Origin: Falciphora oryzae
Lineage: Eukaryota; Ascomycota; Sordariomycetes; Magnaporthales; Magnaporthaceae
NCBI GenBank assembly: GCA_000733355.1
Contig: JNVV01000022.1
Coordinates: 62,001 to 126,000, forward strand
Reading direction: 5' to 3'
Length of the DNA: 64,000 nucleotides
How positions within the stretch are numbered: position 1 is the first letter of the stretch; each line of letters begins with the position of its first letter. A program made the position numbers and the translations under genes. Under the pieces are notes generated by a model. The model was not told where the DNA came from, ran no database searches, and saw nothing but the letters and a program-made list of their open reading frames with translations. Positions 38,219 through 63,096 of this stretch are shown here, in pieces.

Positions 38219-39082
38219 AGGGTGTACGTGCTCGAGGGGGGGCTCTGAGCACGGTTTTCAGTTTGTTTCTTTCGTCCAAGTAGAATTAATAATACCCTAT
38301 ACATATAGACTGTCGCTGTCGTCACCATCGGAGGAGGCGTCGTCATGCGACCGACGATACCCCAAATAAAAGCAAAAACCAATCAAAATACTGAGGCATT
38401 CCCTTCACGTCCTTGTGAACCTCGAGTTTCGTGCAACGGTCGTGTTCGTGGAAGAATGAACGAACGCTCGCACAAGTTAACGTTCATGGTTTTGTCACAC
38501 GAGATTTGTCAAGGGGGATCAAGCACGAGTAATCGTCACTAGCACGTAAAACATGGAGGTCACCATGAAATATTTCAACCTGTCGGATAGGTGAAATGTT
38601 TGACCCAAATTACGAAATGGAAATGGAAGAGGAAGAGGAAGAGGAAGAGGAAGAGGAAGAGGAAGAGGAAGAGGAAGAGGAAGAGGAACACATGTTGCTC
38701 GGGGTAGCCTTACCTCAATATTGCACCTAGTAAATGTACAACGGTTCCTACGCGATTTATCAATGACCCCTTTAGAAACACTACTCCTGGCGATATAGCG
38801 ACTCAGCCTTGGTCACCATCATAGAGGCTCGAAAAAGCATCGCCGTGTATTCAGGTACAATTGCGTAGATAACATTGTGCTCCGAGGCACACCTCTCAAG
38901 CCAGCCAAGTCTAGTCCGTCCTTAAAACAACGCCTCCAAGGCGCCCCTGATCCGTACCGAAATGAAAGACATGAACAGGTAGCTAGCTCACTTGGTGCCA
39001 TTGGCCGGTACTCTATTGACCAACACATCATTACATCGATCGTGCGGTATGAAATGCTCCAACTTCTTTTGCCACTGTCGTT
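38219..39082. other. convergent intergenic region with hexamer microsatellite
   Basis: This is 864 bp between the lipase and RAD7 3' ends. It contains the GGAAGA repeat at 38624-38688. No gene is seen. Confidence 0.6.
38624..38688 (+). repeat. (GGAAGA)n microsatellite
   Basis: About eleven uninterrupted copies of the hexamer GGAAGA, preceded by two GGAAAT-like imperfect units. Confidence 0.9.
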
Positions 39083-50924: not shown

Positions 50925-53900
50925 ATGGCTTACCCGGAAAAACGCCAGGGGCGAGGCGGGCGAGGCGGGCGAGGTGGGCGAGGCGGGCGAGGTGGGCGAG
51001 GCGGGCGAGGCGGACAATGTGACCAAGGCTGGGGTGACAAGAATGCCGGACGCGGAGGCCGGGGCAAAGGATCCAAACGCCCGCCAGTGTCCCCGGAAGA
51101 AGAAGATACTCAATCGAAGCACTCCGACTGGAAAGCTCTCCTCCACCGCGCGCCGTCAAAGGGCATAACCAAGAGTAGCGCTGACCTGGAGCGCTTTTGG
51201 GTCATGGCTCGAGAGATCCTGGACAGTCCTGGCCGCAACTGGCACCAATTCCTTGCCCAGGATCTCGTTGCTGATGAGGACAGTCAAGGTCGCCGTCTCC
51301 TTGGGCTCAACTATGTCAAGTCAACGCTCGAGATAGTCTCTGAGGACAGCCCCAGGTACATCCAGGTCATGCGGCCGTTCCTCCAGGTCATCACTCACCG
51401 CAGCCTGTTGGATTCACTCTCCATCGATACATATGTTGGCACGCTGTACAACTTCATCAGTGGTGCTAACGGTGACCGAGGAATTGCTTTCCTGATCAAC
51501 ATCTGCCACGAACTAACCAAGCTATGCGGCCACCGCGCGACGGCGCCGACAGACAGCAACGACCTGCTACGCCTGATTGTCGAGGCACTCCACCAGCTTC
51601 TTCTCAGGGAGCTGCGATGCAGGTTGAACCAAGACCTGCCGCAACTGTGCGACAAGCTGGACTACCTCGTCGGCGTCAATCAGCCGGCAGACCATGGGAT
51701 CAACTCGCGAATTCAAACCTCGCGCGGGCTGATGAGCCGGGCGGCAAGGCTCGCCGAGAAAACCAGCAATCAAAGCGACACTGGCGGCAAAGCTAACATC
51801 CAATCCACCTTCCCTTTGGACATGGTCCTTCCAGGTGGGCGACACGACAACGACCACTCGGACATTGCCAAGGTGCAGATCTTCCCGACCACAGGCGAGG
51901 TCATGAGCAACAGTCCCGGGTTTCTTCCATCCACGAATTGGCTTGAGCCGCACTTTCTCAACGACCCAGTCCAACGGCACCTGGACACACATTTTCGGCT
52001 CGTGCGTCATGATATCTTCGGGCCCCTCAGTCGATTCCTCCATGACCTGATCTCGCAGAATTGTTCGCTCTCCTGGCTCCGCGCCCAGAGAGATATGCGT
52101 GCTCACGGATATGGTCAAGCCCGGATCCAGCGTCGCCTGTCTGTCGACAAAGACCATGGCCTCGAGGCTGCGGTATCGTTTCTCCCACCACCAGAGGTGC
52201 GCAAGAAGTCCAAGGCGCAGCAGAGGCTTTGGTGGTCCGCCTCATCGCGTCTGGAAGATGGATGTCTCGCGTGCTTTGTCACATCACAGGGAGCTGAGCA
52301 CTCCATTCTGTTTCTCAACGTTATAGCGAAGACGAAAGAAGGCGACAACAGAGGCAAACAAGATGTTGCCTCCAACCTGACTCCAGACACTGGTATTTCC
52401 AGTATCAAGATAAGACTCGCAACAAAGGCGCCAGCGGATGTAGCTTCGCTAGTCCACGCCTCCATCAGCCAGGCCGAGGGCGTTCTCGTGGAGTTTCCCG
52501 GACTTATCTCAGGAACCTTCACGCCTGTTCTCATGAGCCTTCAGAGGATGATACAGGAGGCTGAAATTCCCTTCTCGCAATGGATCCTGCCTCACGTTTC
52601 GGGTGCAAATGAATCCACCCCGATCCCACCACCTGCGTATGCCCGTCGGCCAGGTTTTCGCTTCAAGCTGGACTGCATCGCCAAGACTGGCCGGCTCCTC
52701 GAGCTTGATCCCGTCACAGCAGGCGATAACCCCGCGTTCCTCGAGACGCTCGAAGCGCGAACCGGGCTTGACGCTGGCCAATGTCAGGGCCTCATCGGAG
52801 CTCTTACCCGAGAGTTCTCCATGCTTCAGGGACCTCCTGGAACTGGCAAGTCGTATGTTGGTGTCCAGCTGACGAGAGTGCTTCTGGGGTGCAAGTCGGC
52901 GGCCAACCCGATTGGACCCATCATCGTCATATGCTACACCAACCACGCGTTGGATCAGTTCCTCAAGCACCTCCTGGACGTTGGCATCGAGAAGATTATC
53001 CGAATCGGCGGCCGATGCCGCTTGCCTGAGCTGGAGGGAAAGAACCTGCGCCTTGTTAGCCGGAACATAGACAAGACAAGAGCCGAGACGAGAGAGGTGG
53101 CACAGGCATATAGCGCTCTGGAAGTCTGCGAGGGGGAGATCATGCGTACACTCGGATATCTGCGCGCGCTGCACGGCTCTCAGGGACAGCCCACGTGGGC
53201 GTCGCTGCAGCCATTCCTGCGTCGGCGATACCGAGCCATCGCCGAACAGCTGCAGACCCTGGAGTCGGGAGACTCAGAGGGGTTCATCATGGTCGGCAAA
53301 GATCCCCTCAGTTCCTGGCTAAACGGCCCCGAGAAGGGAGAGCTGGCCGTAGCCGCACGAGAGCGCGGGAATGCGGGAGTCTTGATCCAAGCGGCACAGA
53401 ATGACATCTGGTCCTTGTCCAAGAAGGAGCGGCAGAGAGCTGTCGATCACATCGTGGATGAAGCCCGCCGTCGCTACACTGACGTTATCTGCGAAAAGGT
53501 TGCGCAAGCGGCTTCTACCCGGCAAAAGCAGATTAACGTGTATCGAGATGTCGACCGACGCGCCCTCAGCCAGGCCGACATCATTGGCGTGACAACAACA
53601 GGCCTGGCTCGGGAAATTGACATGCTCCGGCGCCTTGGCTCTAAGATCGTCATCTGCGAGGAGGCAGCTGAGGTCCTAGAGGCCCATTCGATCTCTGCCT
53701 TAGTGCCTGGAGTCGAACATTTTATCCAGATTGGCGATCATCTTCAGCTCAGACCTCAGATTGCAAGCTACGACTTAAGCGTGGAGTCTACGAGGGGGTC
53801 CCGGTACCAGCTCAATCGAAGCCAGTTCGAGCGACGGGCTCTCGGAGAGCCCGGGCTTAAGGCCATCACATTCGCGCAGCTCAACATTCAGCGACGCGCG

Positions 53901-56900
53901 CGTCCGGAGATCTCGAGTCTCATCAGCAGCACATTGTACCCAGGGCTGCGCGACCACGACAGCGTCACTCGCTATCCGGATGTCGTTGGGATGCGCGACA
54001 ACCTCTTCTGGCTTGACCACGGGCACTCTGAAGATGACCGAGCCGGAGACGTCGGGGCCACATCGCGGAGCAACCTCTGGGAGGTGGGCTGGGTTGTCAG
54101 TTTGGTGCGGCATCTGGTGCGCCAGGGCGCATACAGCCCAACTGACATTGCCGTCATCACGCCGTATGTCAGTCAACTGCGGAATCTTCGCAAGGCACTC
54201 GGAGCCGAGCTCGAAGTCTTTGTGAGCGATCGAGATGAGGAGGCGCTCGCTCTAGATGGTCATGGCAATGAGCAGGGGCCCGCTGTCGCCATGGTGGATG
54301 GCAAACCCCTGATGCGCAAGTCACTCGGCGAAGCGATCCGGCTGGCGACGGTGGACAACTTCCAGGGAGAAGAAGCGAAGGTCATCATAATCTCCTTGGT
54401 TCGCGGGAATCCTGAAAACAAAGTTGGATTCCTGCGGACGTCTAACCGCATCAACGTGCTCCTTAGCCGAGCGCAGCACGGCATGTACCTCATCGGCAAC
54501 AGCAAGACATACGTCGGCTCCAACGTTCCCATGTGGACCCAGGTCCATAGCCAGCTGAAGGATGCAAGCCGAGTCGGGCAGGCGCTCAGACTGTGCTGCC
54601 CGCGCCACCCGGGCACCATCATCCAGTGCTCGGGTCCCGAGGACTTTCTTCTCAAGAGCCCAGAGGGCGGTTGCTCGCTGACCTGCGACCGGCGTCTCGA
54701 CCGGTGTGGCCACCGCTGCATGGCAAAGTGCCACTCGGAAAACATGCACAGCGCCTGGCCCTGCCCGCGCGAGTGCGAGCGCATCCGCACCACCTGCGAC
54801 CACGCGTGCCCAAAGCCCTGCGGTTCTAACTGCGGACCTTGCATGGCCTCGATCGACGGGATCAAACTCGCCTGTGGTCACGTCAAAAACGGTGTCCCCT
54901 GCCACGAGACTTTGCACCCGGCCGGCCTGAAATGCTTCGTCAGGGTCAAGAAGACCGTTCCGGGCTGCGGCCACAAGGTTGAGGAGTTTTGCTCCACGGA
55001 TGTGGCGAGCGCGTCCTTCTTCTGCCCAACCAAGTGCAAAGACCTGCTGAGCTGCGGCCACCCTTGCGTTGGAACGTGCCATCGGTGCCGGAAGCAGGGC
55101 GACGACGGCGCGGTTCTATATGAGCATGTGCGCTGCTCGAAGCCTTGTGGCCGGCCGTACACTGTCTGCAACCACGTCTGCAGGAATGTGTGCCATGACG
55201 GTAGCGAGTGTGCGCCTTGCAAGGCAAAGTGCGAGGTATGGTTGAGAAACATTTCCTTCCTATTTCTTCTTTTAGTTCCTTTTCTATCGGGTTTTCTTTG
55301 ATATTATATCCCCCTACCCATTCCAGCAGAGTGGATGATATCTCTTCAGCGTCGCACTGCAAATATGGCAGGAGAAGAGCTCTATGGGAACAGGGTGTAG
55401 AACTAACACAAAGACCTTGCAGGTTCGCTGTCCGCATTCCCGGTGCGGCAAAGGTTGCAAGGAGCCATGCGCTCCCTGCATTGAGCCCTGCACCTGGCGC
55501 TGCGAGCACCAGGGGGCCTGCACGATGCCATGTGCCGCCCCATGTGACCGCCTCCCATGCGACAAGAGATGCGCCAAGAACCTCAGCTGCAGACATCAGT
55601 GCCCTGGTGTCTGTGGGGAGGCTTGCGCCGAGGGATTTTGCCATGAGTGTGGCAGTAAACAGGATGCCATCGTCGACTATCTCGAGTTCAAGAAGTACGC
55701 CGACATCAACCCGGACGAGACCCCTATAGTGGTTCTTGCTTGTGGCCACTTCCTGACAGCGGAGTCACTTGACGGCCTTGTCGGCATGGGTGACGTCTAC
55801 CTGGCGGATGAGAATGGCAAATACACCGGTCTTCGAGACATTTCTTCAGATATGGCCAAGTCAGTCCCCGGCTGTCCTGAGTGCCGCCGGCCTATTCAAC
55901 AGTTTGCGACCAGGCGGTACAACAGGGTCGTGAACCGGGCGGTGATGGATGAGACATCCAAGCGGCTTCTGATCAAAGGGCGCGTCGAACTGCAAGTTCT
56001 CGAGGGAAAGGCTCAGGGTGTCGAGAAGGAGCTCGCTGATACACGCACCTCCTTTTCTCCAGAGTCCTCGAGCAGCATTAGTTCCAGACTCGAGACCCGC
56101 TACAAAGGGGCCAATGAAGTCGTGGCGCTCTCCAGGTCGCTTAAATCCCAGATGAGGGTGGAACACCAACCAGCGAAAAAGCTGCGCGATGCGATCGTCA
56201 AGTCCAAGGGCAAGGACACACCTCAAAGCTACACTCTTTCTGTCGATAGAGACATTTACTTTGGCTCGTTGGTGGTGGAGTTCAGGGGACAGGACATGAT
56301 CATGAGAGACAAGGTCTATCAACACGGAAGGATCAAGAGCGCAGCTGGAACGAGCGAGCAGCAGCGCGACCAGGTGACCAAGGATGGAGTGAACCTCTTG
56401 GTCGGCTGCCAGCGGCTGGCCAGGCAGAGCCGTGCAGAAGACTTCCCCAAGGTTGCCGTCCAGCTCACGCTATGTCATGGCCGCATGGCCAAAGCCCTTC
56501 AGTCGCACTGTCACACCGCGCAAGCCGTGTTAGACCAGGTCGAGAACGCACGGGGTCTGCTCGGCGAGGCGCTCGAGGCGTGCTCCAACCTGCAATTCGG
56601 CGGCGCCGACCAGCTGAAGGCCGAGGTCGAGGAGACGCTTCGGCTGTACAAGGATCACTACGAGGTCGTGACGGCTGAGGAGATGGCATCTATCAAGACG
56701 GCCATGGTCACCGGCGCGAGGGGCATCGCGTCGCATTCGGGGCATTGGTACAAGTGTCAAAAGGGTCATCCTGTGAGTAATACACAAGCAAGCCTGACAG
56801 CCACCGACTTTCTCAAAAGGCTGTGTGCCTTTCTTGGCAAAGCTAACTCGGAATTTCTTCTCCGCGCATATAGTTCGCCATTGGAGAGTGTGGCATGCCC

Positions 56901-56996
56901 ATGGAGCTGGCTCGCTGTCCAGAGTGCGGATCTCGAATCGGTGGACAGAACCACGAATTCGTTAACGGAATCTCGCGAGCGACGGAGATGGAGTAA
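50925..56996 (+). CDS. ZNFX1/Hrr1-like RNA helicase with NF-X1 and RZ zinc fingers
   Basis: Three exons: 50925-55235, 55423-56772 and 56874-56996, 1,927 residues. After MAYPEKRQG, six or more RGG repeats (about residues 9-31) are coded by a GGGCGAGGC minisatellite. A helical region leads to an SF1 helicase. Walker A LQGPPGTGKS lies at about 634-643, and the acidic box is ICEEAAEV at about 909-917. GDHLQLRPQ, VDNFQGEEAKVIIISL and NVLLSRAQHG follow. Next are about eight NF-X1-type cysteine-rich repeats (CGHRCMAKCH, CGHPCVGTCH, CRHQCPGVCG). The last exon completes an RZ finger: HWYKCQKGHPFAIGECGMP, CPECGSRIGG and H. Fission-yeast Hrr1 and animal ZNFX1 of this layout work in RNA-directed heterochromatin and small-RNA pathways. 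The same role here is inferred. Confidence 0.92.
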
Positions 56997-58516
56997 GATA
57001 GTTTGCCTTGGACTGTCGGCAGGAGTAGTTCATTTCCGTCGCAAATGTTGTCGGGATATTTTACTGGTCCTGGGGGGCTTGGACGCGTAATGTATGGAGA
57101 AAGGAAGGTGAGTCTGTTTTGTCGAGACGGATCTGCGTTGGTACTCTGAGTACCGAGGCGGTACCGCTTGTCCTATCTATTGGGTAGGGGCCATAAGTCG
57201 AGCAATGGGTTGCATCGAGGTGGGACCGGTGAGCGGCTCAGCGAGTGTCCTCCCCGCTTGCAACTCTGCAGCAGGGTGTGTAGCTCTGACATAGGGGGGT
57301 GCCATCCAGCTTTGTGGAATGGGGAGAAGAAGAGAAGGGAAATGTGGGATTTGACGGAGAGGAGACTCGAGACACGGGATAATTGTCCTTGGTTGCATCG
57401 AGCAGCACCAGATCTGCCGATTGCGACTCTTGTATGCAGTGGCATTCGGAGATGGATGGACGGAAGACCTTGTCCTGATATATGCAAGATAGCCAGAGCT
57501 TATTTCGACAACAAAATCTGACTGAGATGCTGGTGTCCGTCCGATGCGTTGCACTTTCAAGTACTTGCACCACGCCGTATCCATATTGATAGATACAAGT
57601 GAGACTTAAAAGGGAAAAAAAAAAAAAAAAAGACGTGCAGGCTTTCATCTAGGTTCTAAGCTGATCTCGGGTTCCAGAAATGGCTGGCCATATAAGTTCC
57701 CGATAGATATTTTGTTTTTGTCAAAGTCGAACGAAAGCCCCTTGAGGTCTACTCACCCATGGTGCTACTTTTGCTCGAGCCTGCCCGGCTCAAGACGCAT
57801 GGTTTGTTGACAGCAGCATTGGAACCCGAACGTGAACTGGCTCGTGCTGATCGTAGAAAGAAAATTCGATCGGCATTCCAGGGGTGATCGAGTTGCAAAT
57901 ACATGTTTCTTCTCCCCTGCCTTGGTCCCTCTCCATGTTGAGTCTTGGTTCTCTGTCCGTGGTACGAGAGCCATCGCTCCGCTGGCCGGACAAGAAAGGC
58001 GCGCCCAAAATTTTGGCAGCGCGTTCCACGAGAGGAAGCTACATGGAAAGCAGGCGGGTCCTATCGTGTCCCTCAGGTGGACTCAGATTCCCTACGTCGT
58101 GACCTACTTCTAATCCTGAGCTTCTCTTCTTTCCCCTTATGTCTTTCTCGCCTCCAACCGAACGTCAGCGTACGCATGTCCATCTAGCGAGCACCCCTTT
58201 CCTTCTCTTCTCCATGCGCCTTCTCTAGAACGTGAAGAGAATGGGTCGGTTCATTTATGCTCGGTCCTTCGCGCTAACTCGATTACTCCAAAAGCCACGG
58301 CCTCCAAACCACACACACGGATACGCATACATCTGGCCAAGCTCAGTAGGATTATCCACTGCGACACTGATTCTGAACTACCTCACTCCAATATAGGCTA
58401 ACAAGTCTCGCGAAGCCGTATGTGCTAGGTCCCGACATAGATGGGCCGTTGCCCTGATCTTTTCTCCACCTCTTAGTCCTCGGCATTGACAACACAGTCA
58501 GCCTGGCCCGCCGAAG
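56997..58516. other. intergenic region between the helicase and the micro-exon gene
   Basis: This is 1.5 kb. An A run lies at about 57617-57632. The right half is CT-rich and may be the promoter and leader of the 58517 gene. The minus-strand open frames at 57173-57648 and 57765-58029 match nothing. Confidence 0.5.
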
Positions 58517-60353
58517 ATGGCCGACAGGGTTAGTACTGCCGCCACGCTCTCCTTGCACCCGCTTTTCTGTTTTTCCTTTGCCTTATGATGGAAATGAAGT
58601 ACCGCTGACACAATGCGCAGAACTACAATCAAGGCCACGGGGGCGGCCCTAGCGGCGGAAAAGTACAACAATCTCCACCACACTGGCGCCCCGTCCATTC
58701 TATCGTTCGGGTGGTGATAATGAGACTCTCGACTACTGTGCTGACACTTTGGCTCTGTAGAAACGCGACTACCTTACGGTAAAGAGACACTTCCCAAGGG
58801 CACCTCCTGCTGCACCTCTTGGCTATCAAATTGACACAGTGACTACCAGATGTCGAGCGCAGGAACCCCATCCGGTAAGAAGCATCATGTTGTAGCAGCG
58901 TGGAGGGAATGCGAGGGGTTGCGCGATTTGTTCGTTGCCAACACAACTATTCAGAGCCCCATGGGCCTCGTCCCGGGGCTCTAGTCGGCCATGTGAGTCC
59001 CTCTTTCCATGGTTCTTGTGATGCGGTCTGTTTGGTTGCTAACTGCATATGTTTTTTTGGGCTGCGCAGAAGCCCTCGATAAAGGATGTGGGTGGACCTT
59101 CTAGGTTTTCAACCCATCTTTTCGCTTTTATGAGGTACCCAGGCTGACTAGGAGCATTCGGTCTCCTTTAGGATGGAACCATTGAGGTACAGATCAACGG
59201 ATGTGCCCAAAAATGGTTTACAGGTGTTGACACTCTGTTGCCCCGGTAGTGGACGGAGGGAGAGTTTGCCGTAAGTGCTGCGCCTTCTAGCCTACCTTGG
59301 ACGTTCATTATAAGTGGAAAGGCTGACATTTTCCTTCTCCCAGCACTTCGCGGCTTTATACAAGGTGAGATACAACATCCTACTAATCTCCTAGCTTGTT
59401 CTCCTCTTCCTTTTTTGGTGTATAATAGAAGGCTAACAGACTTTTGCAGAGCCGCACCGACATGCTCCATGTGAGTACACGATCCACATAGCTACCAGCT
59501 TTGCTCCTACCAACGGCCCTCGTCTGGCGTTACGAATAGGAGATTACGGTAAGCCCTCATACGACCCACGCTTTCGGGTTCTCGTCTCGCTGGGTTATAA
59601 TAGAACGCTAACACGCTTCGCAGAACCTCAATCGAATGACGCAGGTAAGAACGCGTTCAATCCAGCTGCTAGCTTTACTACTAACCTCACCACCTGTTTA
59701 GCGAGAGCAACAGAGGGCGGCCGTAAGTTGAACTCCATAAACTTCAATGGTTGCTGAAAGGATGTGCATGCTAATTGCTTGAGCACTTTTAAACTTGTAT
59801 AGGAATGCAGAAGGCTCCTCGGTGGATGTATTTTGCTCGAGTGATACGGCGATGTCGCCGGCTGCTAACGGATGATTAGGAGTACGCGGACAGGATGGCT
59901 GTACGTTCATTCTCCTCCCACCTAAGGGGCTTCGGTCGATGCTGGTTCCAGCGTGCCTGTAGCGGCTGCAGAAAGACATGGAGGTAAGGTTTCGGCACGC
60001 AATCGGAGCTTGGTAGAGCTGGAGCTAACAAATATGCAGAACCGTCAGGACCAGAAGAAGAAGCCAGCGCCGCTGGAGAGCTCCATGGAGGTAGGTTCTG
60101 CTCAGGATGCTTCTATCGGGATTTGTGACATCAACTGACCGAATCATGCATAATAGGTCCATATCGCGTTCGTAAGTTAATAATAAACGTCGTGAATTTT
60201 GTTCTTCTTGACGCCAACGAGGAATAGAAACGCGCCGAGCAGGAGACGGCGGCAGCGGCGAGGGCCGTGAAGAAGGCGGCTGAAGAAGAGGCGGCGGTGG
60301 CGGCAGCGATCAAGAAGGAGCCGCAGGCGGGGGTGGGACAAGAGCACGAGTGA
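58517..60353 (+). CDS. micro-exon gene encoding a short coiled-coil protein, unnamed
   Basis: Exons proposed: 58517-58528, 58621-58662, 58761-58778, 58850-58874, 58955-58992, 59070-59087, 59172-59186, 59250-59270, 59344-59364, 59450-59470, 59540-59548, 59624-59644, 59702-59722, an uncertain one near 59811-59840, 59880-59900, 59963-59983, 60040-60090, 60157-60171 and 60228-60353. Without the uncertain exon the protein has 171 residues and is open throughout. Seven exons besides the uncertain one are exactly 21 nt: WTEGEFA, HFAALYK, SRTDMLH, NLNRMTQ, REQQRAA, EYADRMA and RLQKDME. Nearly all exons begin and end in phase 0. Most introns have GTAAG or GTGAG donors and a CTAAC or CTGAC branch site 10-25 nt before the acceptor. 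The middle reads as a coiled coil, the N-terminus is Gly-rich and the C-terminus is Lys/Ala/Glu-rich. No family is recognised. The exon at 59811 and the donors at 58663 and 59088 are the weak points. Confidence 0.6.
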
Positions 60354-61194
60354 GCACACCTCGATTTTGTCTTTGATCGGCCTTTGGCAACGCTGTCTCA
60401 TACCGACTACACCGTTCACACTAGCTAAAGCACGGAGCACTGGCGGGCTGCTGCCCTCTTTTACTTTCCTCGAAAAGAATGAGAATGCTGTCGGGAGGGG
60501 GCCTGTCGAGAAGGCGGAGAATGGAAATAAACAGTTATTAGTCTCATGATATATCGAGACTGGTGACGTTATGCGACGCGACGATTAACTACACTGCGCT
60601 GCTACGTGCTAACTGGTCTATTTCGAGCGGAGTCCAGGGGGCGGGAGGAGTGGGCGCAGTGGTAGACGGCAGTATAAGATTTTTGTCTCGTCACCTAGAG
60701 CTGTCATCGATTGCTAGATTTTTCCGTGGGCAGAGCCCTCTATCGGCAGCCAGAAAGGTAGGAGATTGACGGTCAGGCTCTGATGGAGAGGATGTTTGTC
60801 GATGCAAAAGTACACCCCCTTTCTCCACCCAACGGTGGACGTTGACTGGCGGTGGGGCAAGCAAGGGGAAAGGTGGGTCAGGCAATGCTTGTCGGTTGGA
60901 CGGCATGTGCCGCACTGCCACAACTGACGTGCTCCACATCAGCCTCGCCCGAGCCTCCCGCAGCTGAGCGCACTCGCCCTGGCCCTTCCAACTTCGCCTG
61001 TCCCTCCAAGGAAAAAAGGGGCCAGCCTCAGCCAGCCTCACAACGCTCGACAACGCTTGACAGCGCCACGGACCAGTCGAGCTGCTCGTCGAGGGACATG
61101 CCGTCGATACACGGGCCTTTTCCGTCTGCTCCGGAGAGCTGACACTTGTGCTTTTTCTGTTCCTTGCTTCGTGTTTGATCCGGCCGGCCTTCTC
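60354..61194. other. intergenic region upstream of PFA3
   Basis: This is 841 bp with no recognised gene. It carries the PFA3 promoter. The minus-strand open frame 60691-61464 overlaps the PFA3 start and looks like chance. Confidence 0.55.
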
Positions 61195-63096
61195 ATGGAT
61201 GTGCGCTCTCGCTCGCCGTCCCCAGCACCTCCAGCAACCATGTCGCGCCGCCTCGCCAGGCGGATCGAGCGCTGCTGCTGTGCCTGCGTCGGCCTGTCCC
61301 CGCTCGCTTTCGTCTATGGCATCACCACCTGGGCCGTGTGGGCTGTCGTCAGCATAGGCAGCACCAAGACCAAGTCGACCTGGCTGGGTAAGTCTGCCAT
61401 TCTGCCGTTCCTCCGTGTCTGCATGCGCGGGCATAACCCGGGCTGACCCTCGCCATGCGCTCACCCTTCAGGCCCCTCGTCCTCCCTCGTCGGCATCCTG
61501 CTCTACCTCATGCTCAACTGGTCCTACACGGTCGCCGTCTTCACGCCCCCCGGCAGCACGACCGACGCGCAGGGCTACAGCGCTCTCCCTACCCACGGCG
61601 CGCCCGCCGCCACGTCCTTCACGGTCAAGTCCAACGGCGAGCTGCGCTTCTGCAAAAAGTGCCAGGCCCGCAAGCCCGACCGCGCGCACCACTGCTCGAC
61701 CTGCCGCCGATGCGTCCTCAAGATGGACCACCACTGCCCCTGGCTGGCCACGTGCGTCGGCCTGCGCAACCACAAGGCCTTCCTGCTCTTCCTCATCTAC
61801 ACCACCCTCTTTAGCCTCTACAGCTTCGCCGTCGCCGGCGACTGGGTCTACAACGAGATCCTCAACAACACCACCTACGTCGAGGACCTGATGCCCGTCA
61901 ACTTTATCATGCTGTGCATCGTCGCCGGGATCATTGGTCTCGTCGTCGGCGCCTTCACCATCTGGCACCTGGTCCTCGTCGGCCGCGGCCAGACCACCAT
62001 CGAGTGCCTCGAGAAGACCCGCTACCTGTCGCCCCTGCGCCAGACCCTGCGCAACGCCTACGACGCCCAGCACGGAGGCCACGGCGTCTCCCTGCCCCGC
62101 TACGGCCAGCAGCTCCTCGAGCTGCACGAGAACGTCCTGCCGGGCATCACGCGGCCGGAGGAGGGCGAGGACCGCCGCCCGGCCCCCGCCGCCGGCCCCA
62201 ACGGCTCCACGTACAGCGACGTGCCGGGCCCCGAGGGCCAGATGGGCCGGCGCATGACGTACGACGAGCTCGAGCGCCACCGCGCCCGCAAGCGCTACGA
62301 CGAGTACCTCGACGAGCAGGACAGCGCCAGGCTCCCCAACGCCTTCGACCTCGGCGTCCGCCGCAACTACCTGCACCTGTTCGGCCACAACCCGTGGCTG
62401 TGGCCCTTCCCCATCTGCACCACCACGGGCGACGGCTGGTCATGGGAGCCGAGCCCGAGGTGGCTGCAGGCGCGCGACGACCTCGCCCGCGAGCGGGAGC
62501 GCCAGCGCGAGCGCGAGCGCGCTGCCGGCTGGGGCCAGCCCGACGACGACGACGAGCCCGCGCCGTGGAACCAGACCATCGCGCCGCCGCCGCCCGGGGG
62601 AGTCGGGTCGGCAGGAGGGGCGGGGAGGCATTACGTGCAACAGCAGCAGCAGCAGCAGCGATACCAGCAGCACCACCACCAGCAGCCAGCGAGCCCGGGG
62701 CTGCGGGCGCCGTCCAAGGCGGACCGCGTCCTGGGCCGGGACCCGAACATGTACGACGACATTCCGCCGCCGACGTCGGTGTCGATGCGCCGCCTGCGCC
62801 CGTCGGGCGGGTACGACGACCTCATGAACGATGACGACTTGATGGACGACGACGACGAGGACAAGGCCGTGCTCGAGGAGGACTTTGCAGCTCCCGCCGC
62901 CGCCGCCGCCGCTGCCGCCACTTCCTCCTCCTCTTCCAGGGGGCAGCCGCAAGCCAAGAGGTCGCCTGGCCTGCGGTCAGACCCGTCGTGGGGCCGGAGC
63001 GGGGCCAGCGGCCTGCTCAGGGGCGGCGGACGGGGCTTGAAGAGCCCCGGCGCCTTGGGCAGGGCAAGGGGCGATTCGGACGCCGGTGTTGATTAG
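61195..63096 (+). CDS. PFA3: DHHC palmitoyltransferase Pfa3
   Basis: Exons 61195-61387 and 61472-63096, intron 61388-61471, 605 residues. An internal Met (MSRRLARRIERCCC, residue 16) is an equally plausible start. The first membrane pair is LSPLAFVYGITTWAVW and LVGILLYLMLNWSYTV. The cysteine-rich domain FCKKCQARKPDRAHHCSTC runs into the catalytic DHHC at 150-153 (C153). TTLFSLYSFAVAGDW and FIMLCIVAGIIGLVVG are the second pair. A TTxE-like motif (QTTIECLE) and the NxxxNPWLWPFPI region (HNPWLWPF) follow. Residues ~330-605 are low complexity with Arg/Glu, Gln, Asp and Ala runs. Yeast Pfa3 palmitoylates Vac8 at the vacuole and helps membrane fusion. The same role is likely here. Confidence 0.9.

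Follow-up and report, generated by a model that had tools for sequence, protein, structure and literature searches.

Flatworms and aphids are known to possess micro-exon genes, which there belong to families coding for secreted proteins. The Schistosoma micro-exon genes (MEGs), as described in one report (PMC10526429), each encode a small protein from 10-20 exons that are very short and usually divisible by three in length, and they are hard to annotate automatically; their introns range from 0.1 to 5 kb, the family comprises at least 35 genes and the N-terminal signal peptide is kept. Aphid bicycle genes, according to a second report (PMC9168663), average about 17 exons, of which many are small and nearly all share one phase, and their homology is hard to see from sequence. 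Internal exons of these genes begin at codon position 2, a large number of members carry signal sequences and CYC motifs, and 121 putative genes are given for the pea aphid. Closer to the organism studied here, a paper on Trichoderma virens Xlr2 (PMC11121469) describes a switch in which a single micro-exon of this zinc-cluster transcription factor is regulated, and micro-exons are mentioned in the text of basidiomycete papers (e.g. PMC1184071, PMC9142197).

Here, we analyzed a window of 64,000 nt (G000:C22:62001-126000) from the 50.2-Mb genome of Falciphora oryzae, assembled in 123 contigs, and describe a locus at positions 58517-60353 of this window that is predicted to encode one small protein in 16-18 exons. 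Among the matches listed in the open-licence literature, none was recognizable by its title and the start of its abstract as describing a fungal micro-exon or short-exon gene of this kind. Set against these accounts, the locus resembles Schistosoma MEGs in its number of predicted exons, the internal ones being multiples of three except for exons 4 and 5, but it differs in its introns of 47-162 nt, its non-hydrophobic start (by a crude test) and the absence of a near-identical second copy in genome searches. With bicycle genes it shares many small exons, nearly all in one phase, and homology that is hard to see; unlike them, it uses phase 0 (16 of 17 introns), encodes no cysteine and thus no CYC motif, and was found in one copy. 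Like Xlr2, it places micro-exons in a filamentous ascomycete, but at least 13 of its predicted internal exons measure no more than 51 nt, and it would encode an orphan protein. The likeness to schistosome and aphid genes drawn in a preliminary description of the sequence therefore extends to the form of the gene but not to its intron length, phase, start, cysteine content or copy number.

Predicted structure of the micro-exon locus

Donors and branch-point/acceptor pairs were scored with matrices for filamentous ascomycetes that were not trained on this genome. When chains were first scored by a flat bonus for each coding base, several places came out as longer exons read in another frame; with codon scores instead of the bonus, the phase-0 chain was favoured. 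Joining the listed sites from the ATG at 58517 to the TGA ending at 60353 gave one open frame of 18 exons and 168 amino acids. Since this chain had been chosen with the frame in mind, we sampled gene models between the same start and stop from splice and codon scores under three intron penalties, leaving the phase free. The commonest model had 15 introns between 58529 and 60227 under all three penalties. Its frequency was 0.20, 0.27 and 0.22, respectively, so the exact whole model is uncertain; among the 15 introns of highest posterior, 12, 12 and 10 reached 0.9, and the less certain ones lie mainly near exons 11, 13, 14 and 16. Fourteen of these 15 best-supported introns are phase 0.

The 15-intron model departs from the phase-0 chain in three respects. 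Its exon 2 extends to 93 nt, and two pieces with weak borders, exon 7 at 59172 (15 nt) and exon 15 at 59972 (12 nt), fall within introns of 162 and 139 nt, respectively. Because these introns and a third one of 157 nt each approximate two normal introns plus a micro-exon, the pieces were kept as possible exons. With the long exon 2 and all pieces included, the gene would have 18 exons, 17 introns (16 of them phase 0) and 185 codons. Sixteen of the 17 introns in this model measure 47-92 nt, and across models the range is 47-162 nt, with most below 100 nt. Even in the 15-intron model, 13 internal exons do not exceed 51 nt, and in a coding sequence of about 500-560 nt there is one intron per 30-35 coding bases.

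All exons lie on the forward strand. Exon 1 (58517-58528, 12 nt) holds the start codon and encodes MADR; it is followed by the donor GTTAGT, and intron 1 has a posterior of 0.97-1.0. Exon 2, which like exons 7 and 15 has at least one weak border, runs over 93 nt (58621-58713) to the donor GTGATA (posterior 0.85-0.99) or over 42 nt to 58662 and the weak donor GTACAA. Exon 3 (58761-58778, 18 nt, KRDYLT) lies between introns with posteriors of 0.82-0.99. Exons 4 (58850-58874, 25 nt, donor GTAAGA) and 5 (58955-58992, 38 nt, donor GTGAGT) are the two non-symmetric exons and together amount to 63 nt. Exon 6 (59070-59087, 18 nt, KPSIKD) is supported by its splice sites and by the phase-free model, and possible exon 7 (59172-59186, DGTIE) ends at the weak donor GTACAG. 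Exons 8 (59250-59270, WTEGEFA, donor GTAAGT), 9 (59344-59364, HFAALYK, placed by splice sites and the phase-free model) and 10 (59450-59470, SRTDMLH) are each 21 nt long. They are followed by exon 11 (59540-59548, 9 nt, EIT; flanking intron posterior 0.71-0.98) and by two further 21-nt exons, 12 (59624-59644, NLNRMTQ) and 13 (59702-59722, REQQRAA). Exon 13 has a posterior of 0.67-0.70, and an alternative in-frame acceptor that would start it at 59714 and shorten the protein by 4 residues reaches 0.28-0.29.

Intron 13 (59723-59879, 157 nt; posterior 0.51-0.94) encloses a possible decayed 21-nt exon at 59803-59823, which has a good acceptor but no GT after it. Readings of 19 or 25 nt at 59803-59827, checked by hand, do have GT donors but lead to a stop, and this candidate may be a decayed or poison exon. 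Downstream lie exon 14 (59880-59900, 21 nt, EYADRMA), possible exon 15 (59972-59983, KDME), in which a good donor GTAAGG is combined with a weak acceptor side, and exon 16 (60040-60090, 51 nt; posterior 0.60-0.64). For exon 16, an alternative in-frame acceptor that would move its start to 60049 has a posterior of 0.31-0.33 and would remove 3 residues. Exon 17 (60157-60171, 15 nt, VHIAF) ends at the donor GTAAGT, and exon 18 (60228-60353, 126 nt) encodes an Ala/Glu/Lys-rich C terminus and the stop. A weak candidate poly(A) signal, AATAAA at 60526-60531 on the same strand, starts 173 nt past the last base of the stop codon; the hexamer occurs 15 times in the window against 9.3 expected, and another copy lies within intron 17 at 60182. 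A bacterial-type promoter scan upstream of the locus was uninformative, the host being a fungus.

Several claims of the preliminary description can be judged against this structure. The short blocks bounded by donors and by branch-point/acceptor pairs, which form a single open frame from 58517 to 60353, were borne out, and so was the prevalence of phase 0. As to the proposed number of about 18 micro-exons, the best-supported model has 16 exons, and adding the weak-border pieces gives up to 18. Instead of seven 21-nt blocks there are six with GT-AG borders (starting at 59250, 59344, 59450, 59624, 59702 and 59880), as the candidate in intron 13 lacks a following GT. The joined protein is open as stated, but it has 168 or 185 residues rather than about 171, depending on the exon 2 donor.

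Chance expectation, NSA2 control and coding signal

To score whole chains, we used an additive score in two settings. In the narrow setting (exons of 6-66 nt, introns of 45-110 nt), the micro-exon locus scored 41.3 with 11 micro-exons, while the maximum over 500 dinucleotide shuffles of the locus was 8.8; the best chain reached 16.5 across 200 kb sampled at 20 places in this genome and 6.8 in the rest of the window. In the wide setting (maxima of 120 nt for exons and 170 nt for introns), applied to these 200 kb plus the window (264 kb), the locus scored 54.1 with 13 micro-exons, and the next chains scored 27.1 and 12.0. This additive score replaced a chain counter with strict thresholds, whose longest runs were 2-4 exons at the locus and 1-2 in the remainder of the window. 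Blocks of exactly 21 nt between strong sites numbered six at the locus and seven in the rest of the 264 kb, both strands counted, and outside the locus 21 nt was not a favoured block length (mean 6.3 blocks per length there).

The chains scoring 16.5 and 27.1 belong to one real gene, NSA2, a conserved ribosome-biogenesis gene (L012:4508-6027, minus strand) with at least 10 introns and several exons of 28-38 nt. Its protein, joined by the same script with longer exons allowed, matches a solved NSA2 chain with an E value of 7.1e-122 over all 252 residues given, with three single-residue gaps. NSA2 thus serves to validate the splice model as a positive control and demonstrates that the genome has short exons in other genes as well; the earlier suggestion that an intron-rich gene is unexpected here needs softening. 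The script also called one false donor in NSA2, cutting the last exon to 16 nt although the frame runs on to a stop, so single predicted borders can be wrong. NSA2 and the micro-exon locus are alike in being intron-rich, with short exons and the same kind of splice signals. They differ in exon symmetry: among the ten exons called before the last in NSA2, only that of 261 nt has a length divisible by three, and none measures 21 nt.

Coding potential was assessed with a table of 6970 codons from the window's stop-free frames of at least 400 codons, which are not verified genes. Exons 1-17 scored +0.41 bits per codon in the proposed frame versus -0.25 and -0.24 in the other two, and contained no stop in 127 codons in frame versus 3 and 6 in 126 codons each. 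Their GC content by codon position was 0.59/0.45/0.72, and that of the introns was 0.48. None of 5000 pseudo-chains drawn from intron interiors matched the score of exons 8-17; stops counted against a pseudo-chain, and 5.6% were stop-free. Codon use and the open frame support coding, and do so in the proposed frame only; a frame-specific coding signal across predicted junctions, one feature of a spliced protein-coding gene, is present. Judged from the sequence, the locus is likely to be a real gene with at least about 15 introns, and splice signals, codon use and frame lend good support to the proposal of a fungal gene composed of many symmetric micro-exons.

Block duplication, predicted protein and genomic setting

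Local alignment revealed a duplicated block on the forward strand. Copy 1 (59398-59509) covers the end of intron 9, exon 10 and the start of intron 10; copy 2 (59578-59683) covers the end of intron 11, exon 12, the duplicate partner of exon 10, and the start of intron 12. The two copies align with a score of 72.5, compared with a maximum of 43.5 in 1000 shuffles, and among 136 non-overlapping pairs of exon surroundings the exon 10/12 pair stands out with a z score of 21.5, the next being 6.1. Most likely, at least one exon arose by tandem duplication of an intron-exon-intron block. The copies agree at 65 of 85 aligned bases in the intron parts and at 13 of 20 in the exon part, so there is no extra conservation of the exon. 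Further duplications involving the surroundings of exons 2/12 and 6/12 (equalled in 0 and 1 of 200 shuffles, respectively) were dismissed as too weak with 136 pairs tested.

DNA searches of the same genome with the whole locus, and with a 185-base stretch of introns 9 and 10, returned no second place. These searches missed the known block about 76% alike lying 180 bases away within the locus, so they exclude only closer copies, and older paralogues or a diverged introner family may exist. As far as near-identical DNA goes, the locus is single-copy by these searches.

The 185-residue form of the predicted protein has a mass of 20.4 kDa, a pI of 8.0, a mean hydropathy of -0.96 and no cysteine. 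By a simple hydropathy count it has no hydrophobic start and no membrane span; in a crude signal-peptide test, 11-residue windows beginning within the first 20 residues reached a mean hydropathy of -0.7 at best. Being small and hydrophilic, with neither cysteine nor a hydrophobic start, the protein is probably intracellular. A Pfam/NCBIfam search of the joined protein gave sub-threshold matches only. A word search of the protein database yielded 658 candidates, none at an E value of 1 or better, and a search with residues 24-127 of the 168-residue form over a wider length range yielded 12, none at 10 or better. Matches to PDB sequences had E values no better than 0.018. A coiled coil with one heptad per 21-nt exon was not supported: over the central 44 residues, the best-register hydrophobicity at a and d positions was equalled or exceeded in 1735 of 20,000 permutations.

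The right-hand neighbour bears on how these negative searches are read. Its main open frame (61510-63096) encodes a PFA3-like DHHC palmitoyltransferase (Pfam PF01529, E value 1.6e-38) with 1676 relatives in the protein database. Every organism named among the best 120 of the 1676 is a fungus, and the best named relatives among the matches listed are Pyricularia proteins with 68-69% identity, in keeping with the genome of a Sordariomycete near the Magnaporthales. Fungal proteins were therefore within reach of the search. The absence of relatives may possibly reflect missed annotation, micro-exon genes being hard to predict, or else real absence or fast change. A closer public relative of the palmitoyltransferase, with 89% identity, is encoded on a 2282-base contig (P0001). 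For the left-hand neighbour (55384-57090), the sole match was a sub-threshold one to an RZ-type zinc finger (E value 0.022). Elsewhere in the window there are two tandem arrays, one a perfect repeat of GGAAGA at 38625-38688 (10.7 copies) and the other of GGGCGAGGC at 50949-51013 (7.2 copies).

Proposed splicing of the array and alternative explanations

Taken together, we consider it fairly probable that the locus is a genuine coding gene of mostly symmetric phase-0 micro-exons with 15-17 introns, spliced intron by intron and for the most part constitutively. Introns this short are expected to be recognized one by one (intron definition), and splicing variation in fungi consists mostly of intron retention. 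Each short intron of the array would carry its own donor, branch point and acceptor, so that splice sites could be paired across the intron and the size of the exons would be immaterial. Part of the array would have grown by tandem intron-exon-intron duplication, which could add or copy an exon without damage to the frame, and most mRNA would be expected to contain all exons. In the 18-exon model, retention of any single intron breaks the protein (17 of 17 cases): retained intron 14 shifts the frame, which then ends in the last exon, and each of the others brings an early stop. Levels of the full-length protein should therefore depend steeply on splicing efficiency.

The claim that symmetric exons permit skipping without a frameshift held on the 18-exon model, in which skipping one internal exon at a time preserves the frame for 14 of 16, exons 4 and 5 being those that break it. 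Such exons could be skipped in combinations to give many variants, as proposed for schistosome MEGs, and the phase-0 class of 16 of the 17 introns, together with the alternative in-frame acceptors of exons 13 and 16 (posterior about 0.3), would fit a generator of isoforms. However, introns of 47-92 nt are expected to follow intron definition, and skipping is thus disfavoured; predicted introns of about 50-100 nt and the fungal habit of retaining introns both argue for intron-by-intron recognition, the protein has no hydrophobic start for secretion, and block duplication with phase-0 introns alone could yield symmetric exons. We regard combinatorial skipping as unlikely. The origin of the introns raises another alternative, namely repeated insertion of introner-like mobile elements into one gene, and intron pairs 9/11, 9/10, 10/12 and 6/12 are indeed more alike than in all 100 shuffles. 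Against this, the strongest likeness does not stop at the intron border but extends across exon 10/12 and into the following intron, as expected of a segment duplication, and no second genomic place was found for the locus or introns 9-10 by a search that finds only copies closer than about 76%; as regards near-identical introns in many genes, the introner feature, introns 9 and 10 were the only single introns searched apart. Mobile introns seem to us quite improbable as the source of the array.

Two further alternatives concern the protein itself. The locus might be a decaying or recently born orphan gene, with splice signals that are real or recently so and a protein under weak or no selection. 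An open frame throughout, codon use like that of the window's long open frames and strong donors at most introns speak against this, whereas the failure of two protein searches to detect a relative, an exon part of the duplicated block that is no better preserved than its intron part and the likely decayed exon at 59803-59823 speak for it; we consider it a lesser possibility and on balance rather unlikely. Many short introns, tiny exons and a lack of protein relatives would also suit a non-coding host gene, in which small RNAs would be carried by the introns and the exons would be of no consequence, as in snoRNA host genes. The frame-specific codon signal and the absence of a stop in 168 codons run counter to such a host gene. 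Moreover, no Rfam match reached the gathering score in the window, the two sub-threshold ones both lying on the other strand, and an exact C box (RTGATGA) occurs in none of the 17 introns, with one-mismatch forms in 5; an unknown small RNA may have escaped these searches. We consider a small-RNA host gene highly improbable.

The reading as a mostly constitutively spliced coding gene can be carried one step further. Somewhat speculatively, and with considerable doubt, the locus may represent a micro-exon gene in a new, fungal lineage, with seven residues per 21-nt phase-0 exon, expansion by block duplication and an output that measures splicing capacity. If true, such a compact fungal case would provide a test bed for how the spliceosome handles exons of 9-21 nt. 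With a duplication still visible, the array would show how arrays of this type arise, and it would hint at genes that automatic annotation has missed. The locus could also act as a natural reporter of splicing efficiency.
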